From a virus, in the IMG/VR virus record IMGVR_UViG_3300045921_000952, positions 1-38,429 of that record: DNA of 38,429 bases. One strand, given 5' to 3'. The notes under the pieces were generated by a model that searched no databases, was not told where the DNA came from, and saw nothing but the letters and a program-made list of their open reading frames with translations. Position numbers and translations under genes: made by a program. Below are positions 721 through 32,862 of this stretch, one piece after another (positions within the stretch are counted from its first letter, which is position 1; each line of letters opens with the position of its first letter).

Positions 721-1518
721 CTAGCTACTTGGCCGCCAGTGCTTGTGCTTGCGCTTGCGCTTGCGCCAAAGCAAGTCAGGGTCAATGTCGTCGTCAACGC
801 CGGCGCCGATGTCAGCAGCGTCAACGCCGACGTCAAGCTCAGGCGAGCACCAGAGCCGGCCGCGCGGCGCCAAAATTTCATTGGACCAGACGGGCTTAAG
901 CCCAGCGCTGCTTACCTGGTAAGCGGTGCCTTCTTTCAGCTCGTGGGTGACAAACGGAAAGTTAAACAGCCCGCTGGGGACGATGTTCAGCGTGGTCGCG
1001 ACGATGGTCAGCTGGTTTTTTTCGCCGTAGTAAAACGTGGCAGCTTCTAAGTTCTGCCAGTGCCGGTAGCAAAACAGCTGGCCGTACTGGAACCACAACA
1101 CGCCTGCCGAACCTTGCGCCTTGCAAAGTTGCTTGGCTTCAATTAGCGGGCCCAGGCACTGGCTGTCGACTACGGCGTCGGGTTTAAGTTCCAGGTAGTT
1201 GGAGATGATGCCGTTGTGGAAAAACACGATGTCTTTCCAGACAAACGGGTGGGCGTTCTCGTCAGTCTTCTGGCCGTGCGTGGCAAAGCGCGTGTGGCCG
1301 GCGCCCAACAAGCTTGTCGCAGCTTGCTCGAGCTTGGCGTAGTGTTTCTCAATAAAGACAAGCGGGTGCACCGCCTGCTTAAACATGTTCACCGTGTTAT
1401 GCCGCTGGTCCAAGTAGGCCAAACCTGCCGAGTGCGGCCCGTGCGGGGCCGCCTGCTTGAACATCTGGCGCACAAGCGGCGCGTTTACTTTTCCTGCCCA
1501 TCCAAAAATCGCGCACAT
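721..1518 (-). CDS. Class II (Ntn-type) glutamine amidotransferase
   Basis: This domain releases ammonia from glutamine and passes it to a partner enzyme. The start is set at the internal ATG because the next codon is the catalytic Cys (MCAIFGWAG), which must become the N-terminus after Met removal. A start 12 codons upstream would bury it. GHTRFATHG (residues 74-82) and HNGIISNY (101-108) match the glutamine-binding motifs of the GlmS/PurF family. At 265 residues there is no synthase domain, so a separate acceptor enzyme is implied. Known phage and bacterial clusters pair such domains with amidoligases, and two are encoded in this window. The C-terminus ends in a basic run (RKRKRKHKH) encoded by a hexanucleotide repeat. 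The gene follows a strong TTGTTTACAA promoter with only 5 bases between -10 and ATG. Confidence 0.85.
   Translation of the reverse strand: MCAIFGWAGKVNAPLVRQMFKQAAPHGPHSAGLAYLDQRHNTVNMFKQAVHPLVFIEKHYAKLEQAATSLLGAGHTRFATHGQKTDENAHPFVWKDIVFFHNGIISNYLELKPDAVVDSQCLGPLIEAKQLCKAQGSAGVLWFQYGQLFCYRHWQNLEAATFYYGEKNQLTIVATTLNIVPSGLFNFPFVTHELKEGTAYQVSSAGLKPVWSNEILAPRGRLWCSPELDVGVDAADIGAGVDDDIDPDLLWRKRKRKHKHWRPSS
741..764. repeat. Hexanucleotide tandem repeat (GCTTGY x4) in the amidotransferase 3' end
   Basis: Four consecutive units of GCTTGT/GCTTGC encode alternating Lys and Arg/His codons in the amidotransferase C-terminal tail. Such a tract can change length by slippage without shifting the frame. 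Confidence 0.8.
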
Positions 1519-1523
1519 GACAT

Positions 1524-1554
1524 AGCCTACCGGAAGTTCGAAATTTGTAAACAA
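1524..1554 (-). promoter_or_regulatory. Early-type promoter P1 for the amidotransferase
   Basis: On the minus strand TTGTTTACAA (1554-1545, containing the -35-like TTTACA) is followed by a 16-base spacer and the extended -10 GGTAGGCT. The TAGGCT hexamer ends exactly 5 bases before ATG 1518, so the transcript should be leaderless or nearly so. The same arrangement recurs at 8693-8723, 17655-17686, 19811-19842 and 32831-32862. Confidence 0.75.
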
Positions 1555-7796: not shown

Positions 7797-8687
7797 TTAC
7801 TCGTCTAACTCCAGCGCGTCTTGCAGTGGCAGCATTTCTTCCGCGCCGCTGGACGGCGTGTTAGACTGAGGGTTGTCAGGCTTGCATTCCGTGTAAAGCT
7901 TGTACTGCCGTTGCGCCCACTTGCGGGCAAGCACCGTGTGGCTGTCGGGTGCTGAGTAAAAGCCTGCCTGCTGCAAGAAGGTATTAAACAGCATCAGGTT
8001 ATCTTTAGCGCGCGCTTTTCCCCAGCGCACGCGCTTGTTGTGGTTAAGCACCTGATTAAGCACCTGGCTTAAGAAAAGCGCGCAGGCAACCACGTAGTCT
8101 GGGTCAAGCGTGCCAGGAAACAGCCTAAACTCGACTGTGCCCAGCCGGTCAAACGTCTTAAAGTTCGCCCAGGTGTTTTTGTCTTGCCAGATTTTAGGCA
8201 CGTTGGCGTGGCGCCTGGCCACCCTGCAAAATTCAAGCGGGATGCGCGCGCAGTAGTAGCAATTTCGCCGGACAGGCGGCACGATCATGAAAAACGCGTC
8301 TTCGTAGCGAAACAAAAACTTGAGCAACTCGACAAATTTGTCCGCGTAACCGGTTACGCCAAAGTGGTAGTGCAGCCCGCAGCGCGGGTTGATTGTGCCG
8401 CCCACTTGCGCGATAAGCTGGCCCACTTGCGCGTGCGCCTTCAAGGCGTCCAAGGACGACAAGACGGGCGACACGGCCTCATAGCCAAGTTGGTTTGGCC
8501 TGTTGCCGCAGCTTCTGTCGGTCTTCAAGTCCCACTTGGTAAATGAGACCGGCGACTTGCGCCAAGCCCCGTAAAGCTCGTTTTTGAAGCCGGCCTTCTC
8601 CATCTCTCTTGCGAGTTGAGAAAGCTGGCTTCTTGACTTCAGGGCAAACTCAAATTCCCAGCCGACTGTAAACGGCAACTTGCTCAT
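7797..8687 (-). CDS. Amidoligase 1 (phage COOH-NH2 ligase family)
   Basis: A 296-residue protein with the ordered motifs of the glutamine-synthetase-fold amidoligase family: VGWEFEF (residues 8-14, metal-binding Glu pair), WDLKTDRSCG, YEAVSPV, the His-rich CGLHYHFGV, and LGTVEFRLFPGTLDPD near residue 190. The family uses ATP to join a carboxyl to an amine; phage substrates are unknown. The motif order is shared with the gene at 31959-32825, but the two are diverged rather than recent copies. It has its own TTGTTTACAA promoter at 8693-8723 and lies directly after the dCMP-hydroxymethylase-like operon. The C-terminal 35 residues are acidic and Ser/Pro-rich. Confidence 0.82.
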   Translation of the reverse strand: MSKLPFTVGWEFEFALKSRSQLSQLAREMEKAGFKNELYGAWRKSPVSFTKWDLKTDRSCGNRPNQLGYEAVSPVLSSLDALKAHAQVGQLIAQVGGTINPRCGLHYHFGVTGYADKFVELLKFLFRYEDAFFMIVPPVRRNCYYCARIPLEFCRVARRHANVPKIWQDKNTWANFKTFDRLGTVEFRLFPGTLDPDYVVACALFLSQVLNQVLNHNKRVRWGKARAKDNLMLFNTFLQQAGFYSAPDSHTVLARKWAQRQYKLYTECKPDNPQSNTPSSGAEEMLPLQDALELDE

Positions 8688-8723: not shown

Positions 8724-9452
8724 TTATTCTCCCAGCATCTTGAGGACAGCAGGCAAGTTGCGCTCGTAAACGTGAGCAGAGTGCGCGAAGTGCCGGTAGG
8801 CGCCCACTTTTAACGTCGGATACTGCGGCAAAAGCTGCTGGCGCATGCGCAATAAGAGCGAGCAAAAGAAGGGGATGTCATAGACTGCCCCGAAGTAGTA
8901 GTCGTTGGAGCGCATGCAGATGGTGAAGTTCAACATGTCGTCGCGGATTAAAAAGATGCCGTGCATCGTGCACGGCACGTCTTTGTTGCCGCGCCAAAGG
9001 TGCTCGCGCTTGTTGAACTTCAAGACGGCCTGGCGGGTTTCCTTGTCTTCTAAGAGGGCGAGCTTTGCCCACTCCCACGGGCTTCGCGCGACATTCTCAA
9101 ACGCGGGGTTGCCGCAGCTCTTGTCAGCCCAGATCAAGTAGCCGTAGGCCGAATTTATGGTGCCGTCTGGGTTGCTTAATGGCTCCCAAAACTTGCTGGC
9201 GTGGGCGAAGTCAGCCGCGCGCCGCGTGGTTGACTCGTAAAGTTCAAGCTCCTTCAGGGTGTAGTCCCTGATCTTCGCGTTTCGCTCGGGGTCTTTGGTT
9301 TGGATGGGCTCAGCCGACGGTTGTCGGATGGTTAGCAGAAAGTCAACTTTTTCGCGAATAGGCTGGCCGCGCGGCGCTGACTGGAAGTCAGGGTGGTAGA
9401 CAATCTCATGCAGCGCGGCCAGGTAGGCCTCATGTGTGGTGTCAAACGTCAT
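8724..9452 (-). CDS. dCMP hydroxymethylase-like member of the thymidylate synthase family
   Basis: A 242-residue protein when started at ATG 9452, which overlaps the kinase stop by 11 bases; T4 dCMP hydroxymethylase is of similar size. Thymidylate synthase landmarks are present in order: TINSAYGYLIW (about 98-108), RSPWEW and SRQAV-like TRQAVLKF, catalytic Cys161 in DVPCTMHGIF, MRSNDYYFG (180-188), and AHVYERN (226-232). At the position where thymidylate synthases have Asn (..GLPFNI..) this protein has Asp192 (GAVYDIPFF), the change that favours dCMP over dUMP in T4-type hydroxymethylases. I infer production of 5-hydroxymethyl-dCMP or methyl-dCMP. Activity on dUMP cannot be excluded. Its neighbour is a dNMP kinase. 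Confidence 0.78.
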   Translation of the reverse strand: MTFDTTHEAYLAALHEIVYHPDFQSAPRGQPIREKVDFLLTIRQPSAEPIQTKDPERNAKIRDYTLKELELYESTTRRAADFAHASKFWEPLSNPDGTINSAYGYLIWADKSCGNPAFENVARSPWEWAKLALLEDKETRQAVLKFNKREHLWRGNKDVPCTMHGIFLIRDDMLNFTICMRSNDYYFGAVYDIPFFCSLLLRMRQQLLPQYPTLKVGAYRHFAHSAHVYERNLPAVLKMLGE

Positions 9453-10395
9453 GCGACATAAGAACTTGGCTGAGCTGGCGCTTGAAGCCCTGGCGGTCAA
9501 AACGCCGCCCGTACTGCGGGTGCGGCAGCTCGACGCACTTGACGCCGGCGCGCCTTAACGTATTGGCGGCCTGCTTGCCTAAGCCGATGACAGTGAGCTC
9601 TGGCTTGAAGGCCAAGATCTCCTTAAACTCGTCGCCGTCATTGGCGTTGGTCCACATGCCAAGCTCGGTGGCAAAGTTCAAGCTGTCAAGGCACGCGGCC
9701 AGAAACAGGCTGCAATTTCCGTGCTCGTAAAACGGCCAGCGCACTTGGCGCAACTTTGGGTTGACACGGTCGCCGACAAATAAAAACTTTGCCGCCACGA
9801 TGTGGCCTAGCACGTTGTGCGTGGAAAAGTTCAGGGCGCTTGGAAGTTGAAGTTGGCGCCAAAGCTGCAGCCTATCGACGATGACCTGGCAGTAGTCGTC
9901 AAGCTTGTCGCCGTAAGCCTCAATGGAGTACTCCACGACGTCAAAGCGGCCGCGCCGGTTAAAGTGCCGCACAAACGCGCGGTAGCTGGCTGAAAGTTGC
10001 TGGATCTTGTCGTGGTAAAGCTCGTCGCGCACCTGGCGAAGCTGGGCGTGCCGCCTGGCCAGGTCGTCAGCGGGGCTGTTGCAAAAGATGTAAAGCGCCG
10101 CGTGCTTTAGCAAGACGCGGTCAAGCAGCTGGCCTAGGTGCGGGAAGCGCGTGCCGCCGCGGTACAGCTGGCCGTAAATTAACTCTGACGGCCAAAGGCG
10201 GTCTAAGATGACAAGCTTGCCCGTGTCGGCGAGCTTTAAGGCCTTGCGCAACAGCGCCGTGTGGTAGTAAAAGATCTTGTCGCACCAGCGGTAGTCCGCG
10301 TGCAAGACATGGGCGTTAAACTGGCGTTGAAACGCGGCCGCGAGCGTGGTCTTGCCTGTGCCGTCAGGGCCTTCAATGACGATGACACCAGACAT
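9442..10395 (-). CDS. dNMP kinase fused to a uracil-DNA-glycosylase-like domain
   Basis: The N-terminal half (1-180) is a thymidylate-kinase-type P-loop kinase: VIEGPDGTGKTT (residues 7-17), LVILDRLWPSE (DR motif, about 61-71) and a helical lid region ending near 150. The C-terminal half (about 203-317) resembles the UDG superfamily: FLFVGDRVNP (205-212), WPFYEHGNCSLFLAACL, MWTNAND, ELTVIGLGKQAANTL and a terminal ELPHPQY. The order and spacing of GD, N, LG and HP elements fit that fold, though no Fe-S cysteines are seen. The kinase probably phosphorylates a modified dNMP made by the adjacent hydroxymethylase. The glycosylase-like part could edit or modify bases. TAATG overlap with the upstream methyltransferase shows coupling. 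Confidence 0.72.
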   Translation of the reverse strand: MSGVIVIEGPDGTGKTTLAAAFQRQFNAHVLHADYRWCDKIFYYHTALLRKALKLADTGKLVILDRLWPSELIYGQLYRGGTRFPHLGQLLDRVLLKHAALYIFCNSPADDLARRHAQLRQVRDELYHDKIQQLSASYRAFVRHFNRRGRFDVVEYSIEAYGDKLDDYCQVIVDRLQLWRQLQLPSALNFSTHNVLGHIVAAKFLFVGDRVNPKLRQVRWPFYEHGNCSLFLAACLDSLNFATELGMWTNANDGDEFKEILAFKPELTVIGLGKQAANTLRRAGVKCVELPHPQYGRRFDRQGFKRQLSQVLMSHDV

Positions 10396-11552: not shown

Positions 11553-12131
11553 TCAGTCCACAGCTAAGACCGGCGCGCCGGTGTCAGACAATACCGGCGC
11601 GCCGGTTTCTGCCACCACGATGCTGCCAACTTTTGGCGGCGGCGCGACAGCCGTGGCAGAAACTCCAAACGCCCCTCTTAACAGCAGCAGCGTATACGCG
11701 TAGGTGCCGGGGTGCCTGAACTCGCGCGTGCCTGTCACATTCAAAATTTGAGGTTTGGCGGCTTCCAGCCACCGCCTGACGGCAAGCGCCGTCAAGCCTA
11801 AGTCTGACCCGACAGGCACAAGCAACAGGTACTTGTTGAGCGCGCGGGCAAAGTTTACTGCCTTTGCAATCCGGCTTTTAAGCGGCGGCTTGTAAATTAC
11901 CAGTGTCCCGTTGCTGCGCTCCACGTTAAGTTTAGCCCACTCGTCTGCTGTCAGCGCGGCAGGCACCAGCGGATAACGGTCTGGGATGAACCCCAAGTCA
12001 GACATCCGGCTCTTTAAGCACCACCCGCCAGCCTGCAGCCCTGCCTCATTGGCAAAGTCTAGCCCCGCCTGTTCGGCGCCACTCTGGCCGCCAGCGATAA
12101 TCTTGTAAGTTGACTGACAGTGACGTGTCAT
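11553..12131 (-). CDS. SLOG-fold putative molybdenum-carrier-like protein
   Basis: A 192-residue protein with the family's nucleotide-binding loop IIAGGQSGAEQAGLDFA (residues 11-27), a GGWCLKSR turn (here lacking the usual full CPKGR) and IPDRYPL, followed by RSNGTLVIY and a LLLVPVG strand. These mark the MoCo-carrier-like branch of the SLOG/LOG superfamily, which binds nucleotides or nucleotide derivatives. Phage members often sit with nucleotide-metabolism genes, as here at the head of the methyltransferase/kinase/hydroxymethylase operon. The last residues repeat TGAPVL twice, encoded by 24-bp units containing perfect 14-bp palindromes. The name reflects homology and not a demonstrated metal role. 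Confidence 0.72.
   Translation of the reverse strand: MTRHCQSTYKIIAGGQSGAEQAGLDFANEAGLQAGGWCLKSRMSDLGFIPDRYPLVPAALTADEWAKLNVERSNGTLVIYKPPLKSRIAKAVNFARALNKYLLLVPVGSDLGLTALAVRRWLEAAKPQILNVTGTREFRHPGTYAYTLLLLRGAFGVSATAVAPPPKVGSIVVAETGAPVLSDTGAPVLAVD
11569..11606. repeat. Two copies of a 14-bp palindrome, 24 bp apart
   Basis: ACCGGCGCGCCGGT occurs at 11569-11582 and 11593-11606. Each is a perfect palindrome containing GGCGCGCC. They lie in the last codons of the SLOG gene and encode the repeated TGAPVL segment. They could form cruciform or RNA hairpins just before the downstream gene. Confidence 0.85.
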
Positions 12132-19843: not shown

Positions 19844-20635
19844 TTATGCTTCTTCGGCCTGCATTAGCCGCTTTGTGGTGTCAGGGTTGCCGTGCTTGGC
19901 TAAAAATGTGACGACGTCATGGACATTAAAGGACACGTGCCCCAGAAATGGCGAAAATTGGTCAAAGTGCTGTTGCACGGTATCTGGCACGTCTGGAAGC
20001 CGGACGCGCGGCACGCTGCGCAACTTTAGGCCTGACCCGTAAAACGGCACGCTGGCGTTTAACCGGTGTTCGATGGTCTGCGTCTCAAACCTGGGCCACA
20101 GTAACTTCCAAAGTTCCTGGTCGTGGCGCTTGGTGTCAAAGTCAAGGCTGGCGCGCTCGCACAGGCTGACAAGCGCGTCCCATGAGGCTAAGTTTAACAG
20201 TTTTTGGACAACCGGCGCCCAAAACCCCGCAAGCCCGCACAGCAGCTTCCAGTCATGTTCCGGGTGGTCGCTGACGGCGTGCGCGGCAAGTTTTACTGCC
20301 AGAAACTCGTCAGAAACCAGGCGGTCGCGCACCATGGGCAGCGAGTCAATGTCGCGTGTCAGCACGTAGTTGACGCTGGGGTCCCAGATGGGCTTAAACC
20401 GCCACAGCGAGCCCTTGACAAAGGGCGGGGTGGCGCCCTCGTTGACCAGGGTGACCAAGCCAGCCCGGCGGTACTTAAGCAAAAGTTGGCCTAGCTTTGG
20501 CAGACAGTGGTCATGGTAGACGCGCAGCTCCCACCCAGGAAAGAGGTGGTGGTGCGCCCAAACTACACCGCGTACCGACCCCCAGTAGCGCGGGTCTTCG
20601 CCAAATAACGCGTACGAGATGACATTTTTTAGCAT
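19844..20635 (-). CDS. GT-A-type glycosyltransferase-like protein
   Basis: A 263-residue protein starting MLKNVISYALFGEDPRYW, with strands and a conserved acidic site VLTRDIDSLPMVRD (DID at 95-97) that matches the DxD metal/sugar-nucleotide site of GT-A folds. PGWELRVYHDHCLPK resembles the nucleotide-binding N-terminal half. The DQELWKLLWP segment is a later acidic element. It should move a sugar from a nucleotide donor to an unknown acceptor (modified DNA, virion protein or host glycan). The ATG is only 12 bases from the ATG of the divergent glycosyltransferase gene at 20648. Confidence 0.65.
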   Translation of the reverse strand: MLKNVISYALFGEDPRYWGSVRGVVWAHHHLFPGWELRVYHDHCLPKLGQLLLKYRRAGLVTLVNEGATPPFVKGSLWRFKPIWDPSVNYVLTRDIDSLPMVRDRLVSDEFLAVKLAAHAVSDHPEHDWKLLCGLAGFWAPVVQKLLNLASWDALVSLCERASLDFDTKRHDQELWKLLWPRFETQTIEHRLNASVPFYGSGLKLRSVPRVRLPDVPDTVQQHFDQFSPFLGHVSFNVHDVVTFLAKHGNPDTTKRLMQAEEA

Positions 20636-20647
20636 GGTCTACTGTGC

Positions 20648-21465
20648 ATGAACATAATTTTGGCCTCGACGTCAGACTTAACCTACTTGTTCTTTGCCCC
20701 GGTCGCGGCCCGCTGCTGGCGCCAGTTAGGCCACGCGCCTTACGCCTTTTTAACTAGAGAGGCTTACTCTTTAGCCGGCCAAGTCGCGCTTGGCGAGCTT
20801 GAAAAGGCGGCTGAAATTTTCTGGCTTGACGTCCCGCCAGGCTGCCGTCCCAGCACGGTGGCGCAAGTCGCGCGCTTGCTTGGCTCCACGCTTCCAGTTG
20901 GCGAGGCTGAACTCTTAATGACGTCAGACGTGGACATGGTGCCGCTAAATTCAGACTTTTTTGCGCAGTCAGGCCCTGGGCTTACGCTGTTTCACGCGAA
21001 CGCGTACGCGCACGAAAGTTTCCCGCACTACCCCATGTGCTACGTCAGCGCGCCAAAGTCGCTGTGGGCTGAACTGTTTGGGCGCGGCAGCGCAGTCCAG
21101 CTTCTGCCACCGCTCTTGCCTGGCCCTGAAGTTAAAGACCCGTGGTTTCACGACGAGTTACTGTTGAGCCAGCGGCTATGCGCGCACCCCAGCTTTGCGG
21201 CCGCGAAGCTGGTTACTTGCCCGCATGACCCGCACGGCATGGTCGCGCGCCGCGTTGACCGCGCGCGCGGGAGGTTAACCCAGACCCAGCTGACGCCGAC
21301 GACATGCACTGCTGGCGCCCGGGTTACTCGCCAGAAAATTGGGCGCGAATTTTGAGTGTCATCGCAGTTAAGTTCAGTCAACTAGTGCCGTGGTGCCAAC
21401 ACTACCGTGACAGGTTTGTGGCCGCGTTAGACGCGGCTCAAGCAACAGTCAAACAGTTCTTTTAA
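20648..21465 (+). CDS. GT-A-type glycosyltransferase with an internal 2-nt frameshift
   Basis: The frame from ATG 20648 encodes an enzyme-like protein (MNIILASTSDLTYLF) with DxD site LLMTSDVDMVPLNSDFF (DVD at 94-96) and a second acidic site WFHDELLLSQRL. After codon 204 it turns into low-complexity sequence and stops at 21355. In the other frame the sequence downstream of the (CG)5 tract at 21260-21269 continues naturally (HCWRPGYSPENWARIL, then VPWCQHYRDRFVAALDAAQ) to TAA at 21463-21465, two bases before the next ATG. Removing one CG unit gives a 271-residue protein. This could be phase variation, a decayed gene or an assembly error. Confidence 0.65.
21260..21269. repeat. (CG)5 dinucleotide tract at a frameshift
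   Basis: Five CG units lie inside the glycosyltransferase gene. Four units would join the two open frames exactly, so the tract is a candidate slippage site. Confidence 0.7.
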
Positions 21466-23272: not shown

Positions 23273-23294
23273 CACCGCCGGACGCGCGGCGGTG
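23273..23294. promoter_or_regulatory. 8-bp dyad between divergent starts
   Basis: CACCGCCG and CGGCGGTG are perfectly inverted around a 6-base loop in the 53-bp gap between the flap nuclease start (23256) and ATG 23310. It may be an operator or an RNA hairpin. It coincides with a GTG at 23292 that is therefore less attractive as a start. Confidence 0.55.
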
Positions 23295-23309
23295 GTAAGT
23301 AAATTAAGC

Positions 23310-24725
23310 ATGCGCGCAAGCGACCTTAACGTGCTTAGCAGCCTAGACTACTCGCACCCTTGGTGTCTAAGCCAGTCAGACTGCGCTCACCTTTATGAGG
23401 CGGCGATAGAAAGCCAAGCTAAGTCTATCGTTGAACTTGGCACGTTTCACGGGGTCTCGGCGGTGGCGCTGCAGTTGGCAGCCAACCAACTTGGCGCCTC
23501 GTTTGTCACTGTAGACAGTGACGAGTACAGCAAGCCAGAAGACCGGTTAAGGACCTGGCAGGCAGCGGGGTTAAAAGACATACGGAGCACGCGCGCCGAC
23601 GTGGTGGACTTCTTAAGAGGGCTGACAGAGACCGTAGACTTTATCTTTCATGACTCAGCCCACGGTGACCGCGCGCTTGGCGAGTACAAGCTATGCTGGG
23701 AAAAGTTGTCGCCGCGCGGGGTGCTGGCAGTCCACGACGTCGACCACTTGTCTGACGCGGCGCAATTTCACCGCGACCTGAAGCCTGCCAGCGCCAAGTA
23801 TTACAAGGACGACCAGGGCAGGATCTTAGGCATCTACCGGAAAGGCGGCCCGAAGCTGGCGGCGGTCACGCTGGGCTGCGGCGCGCCGGACTACGCGAAA
23901 TACGCCGAGGCGTCTAGCCGGCGCATGAGCCAGTTTACCGGGCTAAACACAGTGGTTTTAGGAAATGAAGAGCTAGGCGACCTGCGCAAAAGGTGCGCGG
24001 CCATACAAGCGTGGCCTGACAACCTGGCGACGTGGGCGCTTAAGTTAAAAATTTTTGACTACGTCGACGCTGACACGGTCCTTTACCACGACGCCGACGT
24101 GTGCTGCGTTGACTGTTGGGACACCTCGCCTTACCTTAACGTGCCAGACTTTGTCGCCGTGCGCGACAGGACCTGGCTGCTGGAAGACCTCATGGGCCCA
24201 AGCGCGCTAAACCTCCTGTCTTACGTCAATGCCGGATTTTTTATCTGCAACCGCGCGCACCACCAACGGGTCTTAGAGCTGGCCTTTGCTGAATTTACGC
24301 GCCATGGCGTCGCCAAGTTTAAGTTTGCTGACCAGTGCGCGATAAATTATGTGCTGCAAGCAGAAGGCGCGCCCGTGCGCTACTTGCCGAAGCTCTATAA
24401 CTTGATGGACCCGTGCCATGAGGCGCTAAAGTATAAAAACTTGGTTAACATCCACACGTGCGGCGCCTACGGGCTTTACGAGCGAAATGAGGCCTTTAAG
24501 ACCACTGGCGAGATTACTTGGGACTTGGCGCAGATGCGCGCGTTAGCTGGCGCCTACAACTACTGGCCGACGCCTGGAAGTTTGCCTAAAACCGTCTACC
24601 TCTTGCCTGACGGCAGCACCTCAGCAGATTTTCTCTGGTTTGCCACCACGCAAGGCGAGCTCAAGCTAGTCACTGGGCGCCATGAAGCGGCAGTACCTTG
24701 CTACCGGCTGATGAAGGTGGGTTGA
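23310..24725 (+). CDS. Methyltransferase-glycosyltransferase fusion protein
   Basis: A 471-residue protein from ATG 23310 (MRASDLNVLSSLDY); GTG 23292 is a longer alternative. Residues 1-180 form a class I SAM methyltransferase of the Methyltransf_24 type: SIVELGTFHGVSAVALQ (39-55), SFVTVDSDEYSK, VDFIFHDSAHGDRA and GVLAVHDVDH. Residues about 182-471 form a GT-A glycosyltransferase with TLGCGAPDYAKYAE at its start, LKLKIFDYVDADTVLYHDAD (DAD at 261-263) and FADQCAINYVLQ. A single polypeptide that both glycosylates and methylates suggests decoration of one polymer, such as a capped glycan. It ends within the convergent small membrane gene. Confidence 0.78.
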   Translation: MRASDLNVLSSLDYSHPWCLSQSDCAHLYEAAIESQAKSIVELGTFHGVSAVALQLAANQLGASFVTVDSDEYSKPEDRLRTWQAAGLKDIRSTRADVVDFLRGLTETVDFIFHDSAHGDRALGEYKLCWEKLSPRGVLAVHDVDHLSDAAQFHRDLKPASAKYYKDDQGRILGIYRKGGPKLAAVTLGCGAPDYAKYAEASSRRMSQFTGLNTVVLGNEELGDLRKRCAAIQAWPDNLATWALKLKIFDYVDADTVLYHDADVCCVDCWDTSPYLNVPDFVAVRDRTWLLEDLMGPSALNLLSYVNAGFFICNRAHHQRVLELAFAEFTRHGVAKFKFADQCAINYVLQAEGAPVRYLPKLYNLMDPCHEALKYKNLVNIHTCGAYGLYERNEAFKTTGEITWDLAQMRALAGAYNYWPTPGSLPKTVYLLPDGSTSADFLWFATTQGELKLVTGRHEAAVPCYRLMKVG

Positions 24726-24844
24726 GCGTAAGAGCTGAGCACCAGGTAAGCTGAGAAGGCCAGCAAGCCTAAGATAGCCGCCAGCACTAAGACGTCACGC
24801 CAAAAGATGAGCAGCGCGCGGGTCTTTCTGCTGAAAAATTTCAT
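24701..24844 (-). CDS. Small single-span membrane protein, 47 residues
   Basis: ATG 24844 overlaps the stop of the preceding 970-residue gene (CTATGA), and the frame runs to a TAG at 24701. It encodes MKFFSRKTRALLIFWRD followed by a hydrophobic helix VLVLAAILGLLAFSAYLVL and a short tail. The basic n-region and single span suggest a membrane anchor or a lysis regulator. ATGA coupling supports expression. It overlaps the convergent fusion gene by 25 bases. Confidence 0.6.
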   Translation of the reverse strand: MKFFSRKTRALLIFWRDVLVLAAILGLLAFSAYLVLSSYAQPTFISR

Positions 24845-27753
24845 AGCTTGCTTTTCACGTACTCGTCGCTAAAAAAGGCCAGCCGCACCCGCAGGTCATT
24901 GTCGCCAAAAGATACCAGCCAGCCGCCTTCAACCCTTAAGTTGCCGCATGGAAAGACGACCAGGTGTCCGGTTGGCCGGTTTACATTAGGCACCTCGTCT
25001 TCAGCAGCTAACAATGGCTGCTTTGACATGCGCACGGGCTTGAAAGGTGGCGTGCTTTCAAACGCGTACAACCCAATAAAATACCGGCGCTCAGGCCCCC
25101 ACGGACCTGGGCGGATCATTTTGCTGCTGTGAAAAAATGACCAGTACAACCCGTCGTGCTTTACCGGGCAAGTGCCGCCTCTTGGCTCGCCAAGGTCTGG
25201 CCACTGACAGTCGTACGGCTCGTCGTAAACTAACTTTGTAGCGCGGCTGTTTAAGTCTACCTTTAAGATCTTGTGCGGGTGAATGGTGTGGCAGGCGTAA
25301 AGTTCGCGCGCGTGCTCAAAAAATGTCCAATTTTTCTCAAGCTTGTCGTGCGGCCAAGGTTTTTCCAGGTAAAAGCTGTCAACGATGTCTAAAGTTTTCT
25401 CGTTAAACAAGGCGAGCCCTACTACCCTGCCGTCGGTATACGTTAGCCACAATTGGTTGTCATAGATAAAAAATCTAGGGTCTTCTACACAGTAACCGTC
25501 AAATTCCGAGTACAAGTTTAAGATTTTATTGCTTTCAGGGATAGGTTCCCAGTTGCCATCAAGCTCAGACATGGCGATCTTTGTCATCTTAAACCACGGG
25601 ACGCACTCACAGCGATAAGCAAGTAACCTTTTGCCTTTCCACTCAATAAGCGCGGGGTTAAACCAAGCTTGCACTTTACCATAGCTACTTGATGTCCAAT
25701 AGCCCGCGTCGCGCAACATGCACTTAGGCAACGGGATGCTTTGCAGTAACTTGTGGCTGCTAATAACCAACGTTGAACTTAAGCTGCTGGTAGTTGACCT
25801 AAGCTTAGCGGGCAAGTCAGCCACGCGCAGCTCCTGGGTAGAAGGCGCGTGTTGAACATCGCTAGCATGTTGAACGTCGCTAGCATGTTGAACGTCGCTG
25901 CTTACATCGTGTTGGGAGTTTCCAGCACTACTACTGCTGCTGAGACTGACCACTGCCTTAGCAGCTTCCGCGCCATGGCTAACTTCATGCTTAAAGCGGA
26001 CAAATGGCGGCACTTTAGCTTGCGGGGGCTCGCTGGCTAAAAGTTTGAACTCCGGCTGGCTGCGGTACTCGGCTAAAACTTGCAAGATCTTGTCGACATG
26101 GTAGCCAATTAACCGCACGTCGCGCGAATTTGGGTTTTGGCTGATGTCGCTGCCGCACATGATGTGCTCCAGCCCCCAGATGTTTTGGCCATGATACGTG
26201 CGGACGTAGACCAGCGGGTCTACCTTAGGGTTGAAAATTGAGTTGTCGATGGCGATAACTTGCTTGAAATTTTCCTTAAACGCGGTGTCCTCGCGCAGCT
26301 CAAGCGGCAGGTAACGGTGGCGGATCTTGCGGTTAAACAAGATTGACATGTGCTGACCGCCGTCCATCTTGTCGTAAAACGCCGCCCCGGTCAGCAAGTT
26401 AAGCCGAATTTGCCAAAGAAAGGTCACCAGCGCGTCTTCAGCCGCGTGCTCCATCTGGGCCTCAATGCGCCTGGGGTGGTGCCAGTCGTCGTCATCCCAC
26501 TGGATAAGCCACTCGCCGTCAGCGTGGTCAAGGCTTAAATTTCGCAAGTCGCCTAAGGTGACATTTTCAGTTTTTTGAACGTGAATTTCCTTAATCCGCG
26601 GGTCGCCGTTAGCCAGCGAGTAGTTGCCGTGGTTGATGATAACCAGCTGCTTGTTTGGCCACGTCTGGCGCAAAAAGCAGTCCACCGCGACGCGCGCCAG
26701 GCACGCGCGGCTAGGGTGCTTGCCGGTCAACATGAGCGCGGACACCAGCGGCTTTTTGAGCCCGTCCTCCATGAGGTTGAGGCGGTAATCTTGCCACTTG
26801 GTTAAAAGTTGCCGCTTCTTTTTAGGCTCTTTTGGGATTGAAATCGACCCGGCGCGCCGGGTCACTTGGCAGACAAGGCCGCGGCTTAGCGCGGTCATGG
26901 CCACGCCTTGCTTAAACCATGACAGCCACAGCGCGGCGTCTTCATAGGCCTCAAGGGTCTCGTCAAAGAGCTTGCCGTCTGGCGGCACAAGCGACGCGTG
27001 AAAGGCTACCGTGCCGATGGGGATGTTGCCAATAAGCTGATTTTCAGGCTTGGCCAACTTGACTGACGCGTGCTCGTTTAGAAATTGCGGCGAGTTAACT
27101 TGGTAGTCGCCAAAGCCGGCAAGCGCCCCGCTTTCAACGAACGGCTGCAAGAGGTTGCCCACTAAGTTAGGGTCAGCGATGTCGTCAGCGTCAAAAAAGT
27201 AGATGACTGGAAACTTATCGCGGTAAGGTTTTCCAAGTTCTAGCGCCGCGTTGCGGGCGGCGCCTATAGTTTTTGCCTTTTTAAGGCGCCGTGTAATTTT
27301 GATTTGCGCGGACAATGGGTGCTCGACAGCCAGCGCGTAGGTGGCGTCAGTCGACGCGTCATCTGCAAAAATTAACGCCCACGGCAAGCCTTTAAGCGCG
27401 CGGTCTAGCGACTCAAGCGCGCGGTTAATAAATGTCGACGCGTTGTGGGCAGTCATGACCACCTGCACCTTAAGTTCGCGCTTTCCGCCCTCCTTAGGCT
27501 TAAGCGCCGGCGGTTCAGGAAGTTTAGGGGTTTTTGCGGGCGCTAACTTAGCGCGCGCTTCTAGCTTTTGCCAAAGCGCCGGCGTCACGACGCCGTCAAT
27601 TTGGCTGCCGACTGAACTTTGAAAGCGTTGGACGGCAGCTTCAGTTTTGCGGTCAAAGTTGCCCGTGACACTTAGGTGCTCGCCGACGGCGTTAAGCAGC
27701 TCTTGAAGCTGCGCCACAAACGGACCTTGGTTGCCAACGCGCAAAGTAATCAT
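24841..27753 (-). CDS. Four-domain protein: peptidoglycan-binding, two GT2 glycosyltransferases, GH130/GH43-like propeller
   Basis: A 970-residue protein. Residues 1-67 match PG_binding_1 (LRVGNQGPFVAQLQELL, LSVTGNFDRKTEAAVQRFQ, DGVVTPALWQKL). Residues 95-330 form a GT2 domain (VVMTAHNASTFINRAL, FADDASTDATY at 129-139, IYFFDADD at 184-191). Residues about 340-575 form a second GT2 (PSRACLARVAVDCFLRQTWP, EWLIQWDDDDWHHPRRI). A Ser-rich linker with three SDVQHA repeats leads to a five-bladed propeller (FNPALIEWKGKRLLAYR, CVEDPRFFIYDNQLWLTYTD, NWTFFEHARELY, GEPRGGTCPV), typical of GH130/GH43-type mannoside enzymes. It probably builds or trims a glycan at or near peptidoglycan. AGTTGAGGTGCT before the ATG contains one of the window's few Shine-Dalgarno-like sequences. 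Confidence 0.8.
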   Translation of the reverse strand: MITLRVGNQGPFVAQLQELLNAVGEHLSVTGNFDRKTEAAVQRFQSSVGSQIDGVVTPALWQKLEARAKLAPAKTPKLPEPPALKPKEGGKRELKVQVVMTAHNASTFINRALESLDRALKGLPWALIFADDASTDATYALAVEHPLSAQIKITRRLKKAKTIGAARNAALELGKPYRDKFPVIYFFDADDIADPNLVGNLLQPFVESGALAGFGDYQVNSPQFLNEHASVKLAKPENQLIGNIPIGTVAFHASLVPPDGKLFDETLEAYEDAALWLSWFKQGVAMTALSRGLVCQVTRRAGSISIPKEPKKKRQLLTKWQDYRLNLMEDGLKKPLVSALMLTGKHPSRACLARVAVDCFLRQTWPNKQLVIINHGNYSLANGDPRIKEIHVQKTENVTLGDLRNLSLDHADGEWLIQWDDDDWHHPRRIEAQMEHAAEDALVTFLWQIRLNLLTGAAFYDKMDGGQHMSILFNRKIRHRYLPLELREDTAFKENFKQVIAIDNSIFNPKVDPLVYVRTYHGQNIWGLEHIMCGSDISQNPNSRDVRLIGYHVDKILQVLAEYRSQPEFKLLASEPPQAKVPPFVRFKHEVSHGAEAAKAVVSLSSSSSAGNSQHDVSSDVQHASDVQHASDVQHAPSTQELRVADLPAKLRSTTSSLSSTLVISSHKLLQSIPLPKCMLRDAGYWTSSSYGKVQAWFNPALIEWKGKRLLAYRCECVPWFKMTKIAMSELDGNWEPIPESNKILNLYSEFDGYCVEDPRFFIYDNQLWLTYTDGRVVGLALFNEKTLDIVDSFYLEKPWPHDKLEKNWTFFEHARELYACHTIHPHKILKVDLNSRATKLVYDEPYDCQWPDLGEPRGGTCPVKHDGLYWSFFHSSKMIRPGPWGPERRYFIGLYAFESTPPFKPVRMSKQPLLAAEDEVPNVNRPTGHLVVFPCGNLRVEGGWLVSFGDNDLRVRLAFFSDEYVKSKL
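25849..25902. repeat. 18-bp tandem repeat, three copies, in the GT-propeller linker
   Basis: Three 18-base units (25849-25866, 25867-25884, 25885-25902) sharing ATGTTGAACGTCGCTAGC with few changes encode SDVQHA repeats. It is a likely hinge of variable length. Confidence 0.85.
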
Positions 27754-28451
27754 AGCACCTCAACTCCCAACGTCGTCAAACTTATCCCCTTAGGCAAAAT
27801 GGCGTCTGACAGCGTGACGAGCTTGAACTTGGCGCTAAGTTGGCGTAAAAGTTCAGCGCAGGACAGGTCTAGGTCGCAAACTTTAAGCCAGGCGTGCGCG
27901 CGGTAACTTGGCCGCGCTAAAGTTAGCGTGCTGCCAGGGCAGATGAAGTTGCCCAGCTTTTCACTGTCAACCCCCAGGTCCCAAAAGATGACGACGTTGT
28001 CAAAAAAGCCGTGGAGCGTGGACTTGACATTTAAGAGGTCTACGGCGTCAGGCCAGCGCGCGAGCGCCTGGCCGTAGCTGCCAGTCAGCCAAGGTTGAAA
28101 CCGCACCGTGACGACGTTGCGGGTTGACTTTAGGGTTAAGTGGTCAGGCGGGTTGACAAGCAACTGCGCGGGCGCGGTAACCAGCGAGTTTGCAAGCTCG
28201 CTGGCCGCGTGGGCCCAAAATGCCTTAAGCAACTTTGGGCCAAGCTGGCTTAAGCTCGCGCGTGGGTCAAACGCGTCTAGCAGTAACTTATAGCACTCTG
28301 GCGAAACGTCTTGGCTTAAGGCCAGCTTGGCGCGCTGCACAAACTCAAGCTCTGGCTTTGCAAGCCGCAGCAGGTCAAACTTTTGGTAGCCTTGCAGCAG
28401 GTTGGCCAGGTTGACGTTGACACGCTGTAAAAAGAAGTCATCTTCTTTCAT
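27750..28451 (-). CDS. Unknown protein preceding the GT fusion
   Basis: A 233-residue protein (MKEDDFFLQRVNVNLANLLQ) that is helical at first (LAKPELEFVQRAKLALSQDV, LLLDAFDPRASLSQLG) and more beta-like later (VVTVRFQPWLTGSYGQAL, NVVIFWDLGVDSEKLG). No motif is recognised. ATGA overlaps with both neighbours (28451 and 27753) make it translationally linked to the membrane protein and the large fusion protein, so a shared pathway at the envelope is possible. Confidence 0.65.
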   Translation of the reverse strand: MKEDDFFLQRVNVNLANLLQGYQKFDLLRLAKPELEFVQRAKLALSQDVSPECYKLLLDAFDPRASLSQLGPKLLKAFWAHAASELANSLVTAPAQLLVNPPDHLTLKSTRNVVTVRFQPWLTGSYGQALARWPDAVDLLNVKSTLHGFFDNVVIFWDLGVDSEKLGNFICPGSTLTLARPSYRAHAWLKVCDLDLSCAELLRQLSAKFKLVTLSDAILPKGISLTTLGVEVL

Positions 28452-28750
28452 TTTGTGCCGCGCGTAAAAGCCAGCGTCAACTTGGCCGCGTCGTTAGGCA
28501 AATTTTTGATGTCACCCCACACCTTGATCACAAACCAGATGCACCGGTAAGCCAAGCTCACCAGCCAAAGTTGAAATAGCAGCAGGCTTACTAGCGCCGC
28601 CGCGAGAAAGCCGTGCCAGGTGGCTGCCGGCGAGAAAACGCGCCAAAATAGCGTAGCCATGGCAGTCAGCCCAAGCAGGCCTAAGATGGCAAGGTCATAA
28701 GGCCTGAACATGCCAAGTTCCCACAGTGTCTTCAGTTGCGACTTTTCCAT
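28448..28750 (-). CDS. Membrane protein with two or more transmembrane segments
   Basis: A 100-residue protein with hydrophobic stretches YDLAILGLLGLTAMATLFW (about 18-36) and FLAAALVSLLLFQLWLVSLA (about 48-67), plus CIWFVIKVW, then a Lys/Arg-containing tail. It lies between the second sigma-like gene (1-base gap) and an unknown gene (ATGA overlap). It may anchor the glycan-active fusion protein or act as a holin-like pore; the sequence alone does not decide. Confidence 0.65.
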   Translation of the reverse strand: MEKSQLKTLWELGMFRPYDLAILGLLGLTAMATLFWRVFSPAATWHGFLAAALVSLLLFQLWLVSLAYRCIWFVIKVWGDIKNLPNDAAKLTLAFTRGTK

Positions 28751-28751
28751 G

Positions 28752-30218
28752 TTACTTTAACAACCGCTCTTTGGCGTGCAAGTTGATCAACTTGATGGCT
28801 TCTTCAGCCGAGATGTGGTCAGGCAGGTAAAAGCCGTTTTTCACCCTAACCAGCCGGCGTTTCAAGTTTTCTGACGGGTTGCAAAACCTGAGCTTCAAGC
28901 GCTCGCGGCGCTCGTACCAAAAGATGTAGCGCGCGATAGACGAGGCCTCCTTGTAGTCAAGGTAGATGTTTTCCTTAGACGGCCGCCGCACGAAGTTTTC
29001 CAGCAGGAAGGCGTCAATCTCGTCGTCGCGCTCGGCGCGTCGCGCGTCATTGGGCGCGGCCTGCGGGCTCGCTTGTTTGACCTGGCTGGCTTGAAGCTGG
29101 CTGACCTTAAAGTTAGCCTTGTTGTCAGTTAAAATTGGCGTGCGGATGATCTTTGACCCCATGAGCCGCGGCGAGTATGAGATCGTGCCGTCGATGCCGT
29201 GGGTGGCTGCCTCTTGCTGGCAAGCTTCTTTTACCCCGCACGACAGGCAGCGCGGCGAGCTCTTGTCATAAAGCACGCCAAAGCATGTCTCAAATTGGGT
29301 CGTGGTGTCGGGGCTCTTCGCGCCGACCACGCGCAGCAGCTCAGCGATGTCGCCAGTTACCTTTTCTGACTCGCGGCGCGCGGCCATGGTAAACATGCGG
29401 GCAATGGTGTCGCGCTCAAACTTTAGCGAGTCAGGCACCTGCAAGTTGAAGACTTGGCACAAGGTAGTCAAGGCCGCGTTGTACCTGACATCAACCTTTT
29501 CATTTTGCATGCTCATGAACTTTTGCTGAATTGACCGCTGTACAGTTAAGAACAAGTCAAGGTCCATGCCTAGGCCGCGCGCCTTGTCAATGTCCTTGAT
29601 GTGTACCTTTATCGCGTCAGTTTTGACGTGCCCATGAAAGCTGCGGTACGCGGCCCAAAACCAAGCTTCCTCGTTGGGGCTTAGCAGCTGGTCAAAGACA
29701 AGCTTTTCCAGGGGTGTCAAGGCGCTCTTGACATGCTCGATAAGTTCCTTTTCTTCAAGCTCGTGAAGGGTAGACAGCTCTTCAGGCTCGCCGAGCTGCA
29801 GGTGGGCTTCAGGGTCGTCGATGCTTAACTCCACTGGCTTGTTGCTTTCGCGCAGCGGGTCAAGCCGCTCTTCTTTGGTGGGCAGGCGGTGCCCGGTGCG
29901 CTTGATGGTCCCGCGGTACCGGTGCACCAGCCCTTTGATGTGGTTGTTGACCACCGTCTTAAAAAACTTAAACCACTCCGTGCGCGTAGGGTTAGGGTTG
30001 CCAGGCAGGCGGCCGACAAAGCCCTTGTGGATGAGCTCAGCAAGCTTGAGGTTGCCCTCAGCCACCAGGTCTGGGTAGTTGAGCTGCGGGCAACTTATGT
30101 CTGTGTACCGGCTGGCAATTGACGCGATGACATTGTCAATGTCAGCTTTCAGGGGTTGAAGTTCAGGCGGGAAGTCAACTGGCGTGCCAGTTGGGTGTGT
30201 GTTAGGAAGTGCAGTCAT
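28752..30218 (-). CDS. Sigma-factor-like protein B with Cys cluster
   Basis: A 488-residue protein. Residues 25-110 resemble sigma region 2: an N-terminal helix, then NYPDLVAEGNLKLAELIHKG and WFKFFKTVVNNHIKGLVHRY with the basic IKRTGHRLP following, as in phage gp55-type or divergent sigma-70 proteins. Residues 159-190 (ELIEHVKSALTPLEKLVFDQ) resemble the start of region 3/4. Cys312, Cys324, Cys327 and Cys333 (CFGVLYDKSS..CLSCGVKEAC) form a probable metal site not usual for sigma factors. The C-terminus is charged (YERRERLKLRF). It may direct host RNA polymerase to late promoters, with the next gene upstream as partner. Confidence 0.55.
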   Translation of the reverse strand: MTALPNTHPTGTPVDFPPELQPLKADIDNVIASIASRYTDISCPQLNYPDLVAEGNLKLAELIHKGFVGRLPGNPNPTRTEWFKFFKTVVNNHIKGLVHRYRGTIKRTGHRLPTKEERLDPLRESNKPVELSIDDPEAHLQLGEPEELSTLHELEEKELIEHVKSALTPLEKLVFDQLLSPNEEAWFWAAYRSFHGHVKTDAIKVHIKDIDKARGLGMDLDLFLTVQRSIQQKFMSMQNEKVDVRYNAALTTLCQVFNLQVPDSLKFERDTIARMFTMAARRESEKVTGDIAELLRVVGAKSPDTTTQFETCFGVLYDKSSPRCLSCGVKEACQQEAATHGIDGTISYSPRLMGSKIIRTPILTDNKANFKVSQLQASQVKQASPQAAPNDARRAERDDEIDAFLLENFVRRPSKENIYLDYKEASSIARYIFWYERRERLKLRFCNPSENLKRRLVRVKNGFYLPDHISAEEAIKLINLHAKERLLK

Positions 30219-30221
30219 AGG

Positions 30222-31268
30222 CTAGTCGTCGTGTTCGTCGTCGTGTTCGTCGTCGTGTTCGTCGTCGTAAATGTAAAATTCGCCAGCGCGCTTCGGGTCG
30301 AGTATACTGACCATCTGCTCGTAAGCTTCTTGCGCGGTCCTGACTGACCGCTTGCGCTTTTTGGCAATGGCCGCGATGCTGTCCGGGTCAAGGTTGCTGC
30401 GCTCGATGTCGCGGAAAGTCTCGTAATCTTCTTTAATCTGCGCCAGCTGCGCGAGCGTGGGGATCTTGAGCCGCTTGCCGCCAAAAACTGCGATGATCTT
30501 TTTGAGCTGGTCCCACGTGATGATGTTCAGCAGGTCAGGCAGCAGGGTGTAAGAGTAGGCTTGCACAAACAAGTCCTGTTCTGTAAGCGGCACGTAGGCT
30601 TGCTGGTAAAGCTCGTTCCGCAGCGCGACCAGCGCCCAGTTGTAAAAAAACTTAGCTTGCTCTAGCGAAAGCCCGTAGGCGTAGGCAGCCGCGCGAATAG
30701 ACGCGTTGCGCGAGTGGTTTTCCTCCAGCACGCAGGCAATGAGGTAGCGCAACGCGCCAATCTCTTGCGGGTCGCCCCACCGGCAGGTGAGCTGCTTGAG
30801 CTTTTGGTTCAGCGCCTCGTAGGCGTCGTGCCGGTCAACCTCGTGCTCCTCAAAGCCGTAAAACTTTTCCAGGTTGTCGCTGGTAACGTGGACGCGGCGC
30901 CGAAATTGTACGGTCTTCGCGACTTCAGACCGAAACGCGTTTTTGGCGCACTTTGAAAACCACGAAAACAGCTTGCCCTTTTTTGGCTTCCAGTAGAGCA
31001 GCCAGTTAACTACCTTTTCCTGCGCCGCTGAGATTAAGACCGGCAGCTCGACCGTGCGGTGGAAGTCTTCAAACTGCGCCAGCCGCTCAAACATGGCGGT
31101 TGACTCCACGACAATCTCCTCTAGGATAGGCATGGCCTCTTTGTGCCTGCCTTTTGCTGTCAGCTCTTTCCAGCGCAAAGCTAACTCTGTCAGCTTTGTC
31201 GCTGGAAAGATATGTTCTCCTAGTGGAGGCTTTGTGTCAACAGGCTTGTCAGCGGGTTTGTCAGGCAT
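30222..31268 (-). CDS. Sigma-factor-like protein A (gp55-like)
   Basis: A 348-residue protein in which residues about 80-135 read VVNWLLYWKPKKGKLFSWF, SKCAKNAFRSEV, then a basic segment QFRRRVHVTSDNL. The W-x-PKKGK-FSWF-K-A-N pattern is that of region 2 in T4-type late sigma factors and their cyanophage relatives. Later helices (for example RNASIRAAAYAYGLSLEQAK) could form a winged or HTH module, and SIAAIAKKRKRSVRTAQEAY a terminal HTH. The C-terminus has the acidic repeat DDEHDDEHDDEHDD from 12-bp tandem units. It is adjacent to sigma-like protein B in an operon driven by an early-type promoter. Confidence 0.6.
   Translation of the reverse strand: MPDKPADKPVDTKPPLGEHIFPATKLTELALRWKELTAKGRHKEAMPILEEIVVESTAMFERLAQFEDFHRTVELPVLISAAQEKVVNWLLYWKPKKGKLFSWFSKCAKNAFRSEVAKTVQFRRRVHVTSDNLEKFYGFEEHEVDRHDAYEALNQKLKQLTCRWGDPQEIGALRYLIACVLEENHSRNASIRAAAYAYGLSLEQAKFFYNWALVALRNELYQQAYVPLTEQDLFVQAYSYTLLPDLLNIITWDQLKKIIAVFGGKRLKIPTLAQLAQIKEDYETFRDIERSNLDPDSIAAIAKKRKRSVRTAQEAYEQMVSILDPKRAGEFYIYDDEHDDEHDDEHDD
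30225..30266. repeat. 12-bp tandem repeat at the 3' end of sigma-like gene A
   Basis: Units of GTCGTCGTGTTC repeat three times plus a partial copy, encoding DDEH repeats at the protein C-terminus. Confidence 0.88.
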
Positions 31269-31958: not shown

Positions 31959-32825
31959 TTACAAGGTTTGTGTTTGAGTTGAAAAAAGTGGCTGAAATTT
32001 TTCAGTACCTTTCCACGCGGCCAACCGGCGGCGCTTGCGCTCTTGCCGGATGGCGTCCACATTGCTGTGGACGTCGTACCAGCGCTGTATTAGGTAAGAA
32101 CGCACGTTTTTACCGATAACTGCTTGGCTGCCAACTAATTCTGCAGGCGTGTCTTCATTAAGTTTCAACGCGCGCAAGAGCTTGTTGAATACCTGCTCGT
32201 CGTCGCCGGGCTCCTTTTCCCAACCAGGGATGTCAATCAGCCGCCGCTGGCACATGTCAAAGGTATACAACAAAAAGTTAACCCACCCGAGCACGTGCAC
32301 TGGATTTAAGGACCCAGACATGAGCCGGATCTCGAGCGTGCCGTGGCGCGCGAACGCCATGCCGTTGAGCCAGTAGTACCGGCCTTGCCACGCCTGCCAC
32401 CCCAGCCCAAGTTTAAGCCGCTCGACGATGGCTGGCGACAACCCGTTGCACCACTGCGTCTGCTTTCGCCCCGGCGCCAAGGCAAAAAAGATGTCTTCAA
32501 AGTGGTGCATAAACTTGATAAACGGCTCAGCGTGGTTAAAGTCGCGCACCCCCAGGTGCACGTGAAAGCCGCACTTGTGGGTAACCTTATACCCCAAGCG
32601 CGTGGCCAACTGGCAAACTTGCGCAACTTCCTGGAGCTTGTCGTCGGTGGCGATAACCGGGCTGACGAGCTCCGGGCCAGGGCCGTTTTGGCCGCACGAC
32701 GCGTCCGTTTTCACGGTCCAACCGTACGCCGCCAAGTTGCGCCGCAGCTCTTCAATGTCGCGGTTGACCGCCGACGTTACGTTGCTAAGCTCAAGCTCAA
32801 TGCCGACTGTCGTGATCAAGTTCAT
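31959..32825 (-). CDS. Amidoligase 2 (phage COOH-NH2 ligase family)
   Basis: A 288-residue protein from ATG 32825 (MNLITTVGIELEL). This start is preferred over ATG 32849 because it lies 5 bases after the -10 of P6, the same geometry as the other four early promoters. Family motifs appear in order: VGIELEL (7-13), VKTDASCGQNG, ELVSPVIA, KCGFHVHLGV (about 85-94), RYYWLNG and HGTLEIRLMSGSLNP. It should catalyse ATP-dependent amide-bond formation. It heads an 8-kb operon with sigma-like factors and the glycan fusion protein. Compared with amidoligase 1 it conserves the motifs but little else. Confidence 0.83.
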   Translation of the reverse strand: MNLITTVGIELELSNVTSAVNRDIEELRRNLAAYGWTVKTDASCGQNGPGPELVSPVIATDDKLQEVAQVCQLATRLGYKVTHKCGFHVHLGVRDFNHAEPFIKFMHHFEDIFFALAPGRKQTQWCNGLSPAIVERLKLGLGWQAWQGRYYWLNGMAFARHGTLEIRLMSGSLNPVHVLGWVNFLLYTFDMCQRRLIDIPGWEKEPGDDEQVFNKLLRALKLNEDTPAELVGSQAVIGKNVRSYLIQRWYDVHSNVDAIRQERKRRRLAAWKGTEKFQPLFSTQTQTL

Positions 32826-32830
32826 GGCAG

Positions 32831-32862
32831 CGTATACCAAGAACGCCAAAAATTGTAAACAA
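32831..32862 (-). promoter_or_regulatory. Early-type promoter P6 for the amidoligase 2/sigma operon
   Basis: TTGTTTACAA (32862-32853), a 17-base spacer and extended -10 GGTATACG. The TATACG hexamer ends 5 bases before ATG 32825, giving a leaderless transcript for the 8-kb operon. Confidence 0.75.

Follow-up and report, generated by a model that had tools for sequence, protein, structure and literature searches.

Here we describe a 970-aa phage protein that joins a PG_binding_1 domain, two GT2 glycosyltransferase domains, a repeat-bearing linker and a GH130-type propeller in one chain. The protein is ordinary in its parts and unusual as a whole, and its complete four-domain order was seen only in the window, by which we mean the whole 38,429-base contig analysed, a fragment of a virus with the IMG/VR record IMGVR_UViG_3300045921_000952. 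The more general finding is that a virus-enriched GH130-type propeller accompanies sugar transferases. We propose that the protein may be a soluble single-chain glycan builder, in which the glycosyltransferases (GTs) and a propeller working in the synthetic direction would serve a virion or envelope acceptor, a proposal in which we hold belief and doubt to be evenly balanced. The gene and its parts are as follows:

24841..27753, minus strand: whole gene, 970 aa, in the order PG_binding_1, GT2, GT2, repeat linker, GH130-type propeller (ORF and Pfam)
27562..27729, minus strand: PG_binding_1 domain, residues 9-64 (Pfam, 48.7 bits; also 54.2 bits; PDB 5tv7, E 1.5e-5)
26809..27474, minus strand: first GT2, residues ~94-315 (Pfam PF00535 over 98-243)
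26059..26757, minus strand: second GT2, residues ~333-565, with a WDDDDWHHP motif (profile matches)
25789..26058, minus strand: linker, residues 566-655, between the GT part and the propeller (low GC3, 0.51)
25850..25899, minus strand: 18-bp tandem repeat of 2.8 copies (DVQHAS; repeat scan)
24844..25788, minus strand: GH130-type five-bladed propeller, residues 656-970 (profile, model, Foldseek and alignment)

The gene runs from an ATG through 970 codons without an internal stop, an open length whose probability by chance is ~3e-16 at this base composition, and its start, preceded by a purine-rich stretch, shares the letters ATGA with the stop of the gene upstream (27750-28451). Pfam recognises PG_binding_1 (8e-13, against a cut-off of 23 bits), two stretches of Glycos_transf_2 (2e-26, 93.3 bits), of the GT-A, DxD type, and, marginally, Glyco_hydro_130 at residues 692-782 (26.5 bits, the cut-off being 26). 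The acidic sites of both GT2 domains are intact, at D131-D132 and D188-x-D190 in the first and at D420-D423 in the second. The closest profile to the first GT2 is NCBIfam TuaG, of teichuronic acid synthesis (1.7e-14, under its cut-off); the second has profile hits to heparosan synthase B (2e-12) and to chondroitin synthase (1e-10) and is ~39% identical to two phage GT2 genes (L010 and L014). A hydropathy scan showed no evident signal peptide or transmembrane segment (maximum 19-residue hydropathy 1.29). PHROG endolysin matches lie over the PG_binding_1 end, and an endolysin was rejected, the only domains attached being GT and GH130 ones with no peptidoglycan-cleaving catalytic domain. These results agree with the sequence-only reading, which had reported a single uninterrupted 970-codon frame, a PG_binding_1 domain, two GT2 domains with their own sites and a repeat linker. 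Its further impression that no described protein has this order agrees with our searches. No full-length relative was found among 50,697 phage records, 72,556 plasmids and IMG/VR, and our literature search returned nothing on GH130 in phages or on phage proteins fusing PG_binding_1 to a GT. Because a mixed MAFFT alignment of all domains put the GT rows in the wrong place, the protein was modelled in two parts. The AlphaFold2-type model of residues 1-600 was poor (pLDDT 54) and good at the second GT only (~335-450), so that PG_binding_1 and the first GT stand on sequence evidence; of the domains that were expected to find support in structure prediction, the propeller and the second GT did so and the other two were poorly modelled.

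The source phage is contractile-tailed, as the window carries genes for sheath, baseplate wedge and hub. Its sheath is 41-48% identical to those of three relatives (G001, of 238 kb, G007 and G011), and a survey with the baseplate-hub protein gathered 16 related contigs. Among isolated phages the closest sheath, that of Bacillus phage SP-15, is only 27% identical, so that the phage family of the window is a large uncultured lineage. Elsewhere the window encodes two Amidoligase_2 paralogs, 34% identical and 23 kb apart (7797-8687 and 31959-32849, minus strand), a class II glutamine amidotransferase-like gene (721-1554, minus strand; 40% identical in G025, a second species of the same large-phage family) and a circularly permuted YpsA (SLOG family) protein (11553-12131, minus strand; Pfam 4e-27).

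It was through the hub survey alone that an ortholog of the front part of the protein came to light, a direct viral scan with the first 318 residues having returned no relatives. In G025 and its near-identical contigs (L141:8148-9788; L151-L154) one uncharacterised 546-aa gene encodes, in the same order, PG_binding_1, a GT-like middle and a GT2 with the WDDDDWHHP motif, and is 35% identical to residues 13-576 of the window protein (E 9e-100). It was recovered on four contigs from four datasets, which are 99.5% identical over 17.6 kb and agree in at least 545 of the 546 residues. Unlike the window protein, it has no propeller, its PG_binding_1 is degenerate (26 bits), and its first GT has lost the DxD together with the stretch around the DD site, so that the action of both GTs in sequence is not conserved; this first GT may be a scaffold. 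The PG_binding_1-GT-GT part is therefore real and predates the window genome, and an assembly chimera within it was rejected, the ortholog having the same order and neighbours on four contigs. PG_binding_1 was not found in the other phage-family members tested, and four relatives (G001, G007, G018 and G020) have, at the same locus, a ~297-aa GT2-type gene and no PG_binding_1 gene. The neighbours of the window gene are these:

27750..28451, minus strand: overlapping upstream gene, 233 aa (no family match; missing here in G025)
28448..28750, minus strand: 100-aa hydrophobic protein (homologs in G007 and G025)
28752..30218, minus strand: 488-aa protein with no assigned function (syntenic in G007 and G025)
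30222..31268, minus strand: 348-aa sigma-like protein (weak phrog_836 / Sigma70_r2; syntenic marker of the locus)
23292..24725, plus strand: neighbouring Methyltransf_24 and GT8-like fusion (Pfam)

The window and the G025 contigs share the order sigma-like gene, ~500-aa gene, ~100-aa hydrophobic protein and PG_binding_1-GT-GT gene, within which the window carries the 233-aa gene as one extra. It had been suggested that small membrane genes might tether the protein; a single hydrophobic neighbour is there, and its homolog adjoins the gene in G025, which is evidence of gene order only. The gene at 23292-24725 is another enzyme fusion in the same region, and two further genes (19844-20635, minus strand, and 20648-21355, plus strand) have GT-like DxD motifs (RDIDS and SDVDM) without a convincing Pfam match.

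The assignment of the C-terminal part to a GH130-like propeller, made earlier from the letters alone, was borne out by the AlphaFold2 model, by Foldseek matches to solved GH130 structures and by the site residues. The model is confident (pLDDT 91.4, pTM 0.91) and has the GH130 fold, matching 4udk (E 9.4e-12, TM 0.60), 7fip (TMt up to 0.69) and the mannoside synthase Uhgb_MS, and more weakly the Leishmania GT108 enzyme 6q4z (E 1.6e-8, TM ~0.53), while the sequence profile finds the GH130 protein Lin0857 (E 1.8e-10). GH130 enzymes bind mannose through an Asn and two Asp residues (PMC4264767), and profile alignment to Lin0857 and Uhgb_MS places the predicted counterparts at N699, D758 and D953. 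In the viral alignment, D758, the putative general acid, is conserved in 19 of 19 sequences, N699 in 17 of 18 and D953 in 18 of 19. EDPR and EKNWTFF (within EKNWTFFE, residues 806-813, in the window) vary little or not at all among 19 diverse viral propellers, which argues that the site is under selection. The propeller has in common with GH130 mannoside phosphorylases and hydrolases (5b0p, 4udk, 7fip) and Uhgb_MS (9erg) its five blades and the mannose-site residues (one Asn, two Asp), and a Glu precedes its catalytic Asp, as it does in members of GH130_NC; it differs from the GH130 enzymes in being only ~12-19% identical to them, in its EKNWTFF motif and in being fused to or found beside glycosyltransferases. 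We found it at 39 viral loci, and a search of 84,980 cellular genomes with exact peptide patterns, a scan too insensitive to demonstrate absence, returned GT2 relatives and no propeller. Within the GH130 fold the propeller forms a branch of its own, enriched in viruses and with its own history.

What the propeller stands next to carries the argument for its function. In G020 the propeller is a gene of its own, and its neighbours, likewise separate, are a GT2-like gene, one with the motif YHSG(D/N)(I/L)GDIIY, a GT2 and a methyltransferase-like gene (names partly by eye), whereas in G001 and G007 the GT2-like part, a motif-bearing middle part and the propeller form one gene of 762-763 aa; the G020 motif gene (YHSGDIGDIIY) is 44% identical to that middle part. 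Genes that are neighbours in one genome and a single gene in others constitute Rosetta-stone evidence. A GT9 assignment for the middle part was dropped, its motif having been recognised by eye only and neither Pfam nor the PDB giving a match. Downstream of the fusion lie a methyltransferase, a GT34 (8e-18) and, judged by eye, a sulfotransferase-like gene. Furthermore, G011 has a free propeller gene beside a GT2 gene, and at four loci (L004-L007) the propeller is fused to a GT8-like domain (a weak match, glycogenin E 0.009). Three giant-virus proteins in BFVD (A0A1V0SDN7, A0A3G5AFP7 and A0A3G5AG18) have a region structurally like the propeller and are annotated as LicD/FKTN, alpha-1,3-fucosyltransferase and WcaK, names that may concern another part of the chain. 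Our main argument is that this repeated linkage with different transferases points to a synthetic role. As side observations, the glycan island of one relative (L148; G018 64342-65761) contains radical-SAM-like and FkbM-like methyltransferase-type genes (by eye), and at L080, L082 and L084 the propeller follows a ~150-aa N-terminal region on AT-rich contigs of at most 134 kb, possibly not from tailed phages.

From these observations we infer the following catalytic direction, sugar, acceptor and role of PG_binding_1. The protein would be made in the infected cell and remain soluble; its two GT2 domains, of GT-A fold, would add sugars in turn from nucleotide-sugar donors, and the propeller would add, or reversibly trim, a mannose-like sugar, running in the synthetic direction like Leishmania GT108 and Uhgb_MS rather than as a degradative hydrolase. 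PG_binding_1 would be a small docking or targeting module, and the most likely acceptor would be a virion glycan (tail or capsid) or a host-envelope precursor. The Leishmania GT108 mannosyltransferase/phosphorylases (6q4w-6q50) are the precedent for a GH130-like fold acting as a glycosyltransferase (PMC8950772), but they are single-domain, eukaryotic and matched at TM ~0.5. The tandem GT2/GT-A pair resembles that of dual-GT2 synthases (heparosan synthase B, 8vh7; chondroitin synthase, 2z86), which have neither PG_binding_1 nor propeller; both motifs are intact in the window protein and the first is degenerate in the G025 ortholog, and polymerisation by the two GTs in alternation is therefore not conserved. 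Phages do encode glycosyltransferases, such as those of mycobacteriophage capsids and T4 and the GT2-related TAGT. To our knowledge these virion and DNA glycosyltransferases are single-domain and lack a propeller. A virion or envelope glycan is favoured because the second GT resembles heparosan and chondroitin synthases and the first TuaG, all makers of surface polysaccharides, and because single-domain phage relatives of the second GT sit in clusters with other transferases and methyltransferases, one of them (L012) near a tail-fibre-like gene (by eye). The earlier idea that the protein glycosylates the virion or host surface is in this respect reasonable and fits the islands of glycan genes in which relatives carry the propeller, and it stays inferential. 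Against our proposal weigh the loss of the DxD in the first GT of the ortholog, the fact that the propeller-GT joint in this exact form was seen once, and PG_binding_1 itself, which has no obvious role in a cytoplasmic synthase.

An alternative, which we regard as unlikely yet deserving some weight, is that the GTs put sugars on hydroxymethylated bases of the phage genome as protection against restriction, with the propeller extending or trimming them. GT2-related enzymes, the arabinosyltransferases (TAGT), do glycosylate phage DNA (PMC13216743), and the window has a thymidylate-synthase homolog (8724-9500, minus strand) closest to CMP/dCMP hydroxymethylases (8e-20; named relatives MilA and the T4 hydroxymethylases), which suggests modified bases in the phage DNA. 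G025, the phage with the ortholog, also has a hydroxymethylase-like gene, beside a P-loop kinase gene, while G001 and G020 (203 kb) have neither the PG_binding_1-GT-GT protein nor a thymidylate-synthase-family match. Since the informative genomes are few, two against two, and all incomplete, this co-occurrence is only a lead. Moreover, the propeller occurs in six relatives (G001, G007, G011, G017, G018 and G020), none with a thymidylate-synthase-family match; the 970-codon gene is not beside the hydroxymethylase-like gene, its GT domains are not strongly basic, and PG_binding_1 has no role in DNA glycosylation. We also observed in the window a gene (9442-10395, minus strand) with a thymidylate-kinase-like P-loop domain and, behind it, a C-terminal region resembling by eye a uracil-DNA-glycosylase-type domain (FVGDRVNP).

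It is rather improbable that the protein is tied by PG_binding_1 to peptidoglycan or to precursors of the wall, where its catalytic domains would remodel wall glycans or teichoic-type polymers, for example in superinfection exclusion. The domain scores well over its Pfam cut-off, the first GT is nearest to TuaG, though under cut-off, and a Peptidase_M23-like gene lies immediately upstream of the propeller fusion in G001 and G007. Nevertheless nucleotide-sugar donors are not available outside the cytoplasm, and the peptidoglycan-targeting evidence is weak; this is the weakest reading of the acceptor, given the absence of an evident export signal, the degenerate domain in the ortholog and the failure to find PG_binding_1 in the rest of the family. 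The previous suggestion of action at the wall is for these reasons, and for want of a wall-acting catalytic domain, not supported.

We think it improbable, too, that the propeller is a chance acquisition which either degrades glycans, as a phosphorylase or hydrolase, or binds sugar without catalysis. Catabolic phosphorylases make up the majority of characterised GH130 enzymes (PMC8950772), and the propeller part has a lower GC content (0.50 vs 0.57), as expected for a late arrival; but the near-invariant EDPR and EKNWTFF speak for a site under selection, and in several distinct lineages of viruses the propeller adjoins transferase genes or is fused to them. In the window it is the low-GC3, repeat-bearing linker that unites this module with the PG_binding_1-GT-GT protein. 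The sequence-only reading had named an assembly chimera as a possible refutation, which the ortholog excludes up to residue ~576; beyond this the joint was seen once, an exact-match scan finding no second copy on any contig, and a chimera at the joint is very improbable, as the frame stays open through the repeat linker without a stop, the nearest propellers belong to the same phage family and lie there at another place in the genome, and an in-frame artefact would need two matching sources.

Our proposal of a single-chain glycan builder can be extended, more tentatively and with doubt prevailing, to the view that viruses, both tailed phages and giant viruses, may have made the GH130 propeller a glycosyltransferase family of their own, repeatedly fused to other sugar transferases; the window protein would then be one of this kind, an assembly line for glycans in one chain, led by a targeting domain. 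The known activity of GH130 enzymes is mostly the breakdown of mannosides, and a virus-enriched branch that recurs in linkage or fusion with glycosyltransferases speaks for a part in biosynthesis and provides a concrete set of proteins for testing it. Its members are candidate one-pot enzymes for making beta-mannosides, and they make testable what large uncultured phages glycosylate, be it the virion, the host envelope or DNA.
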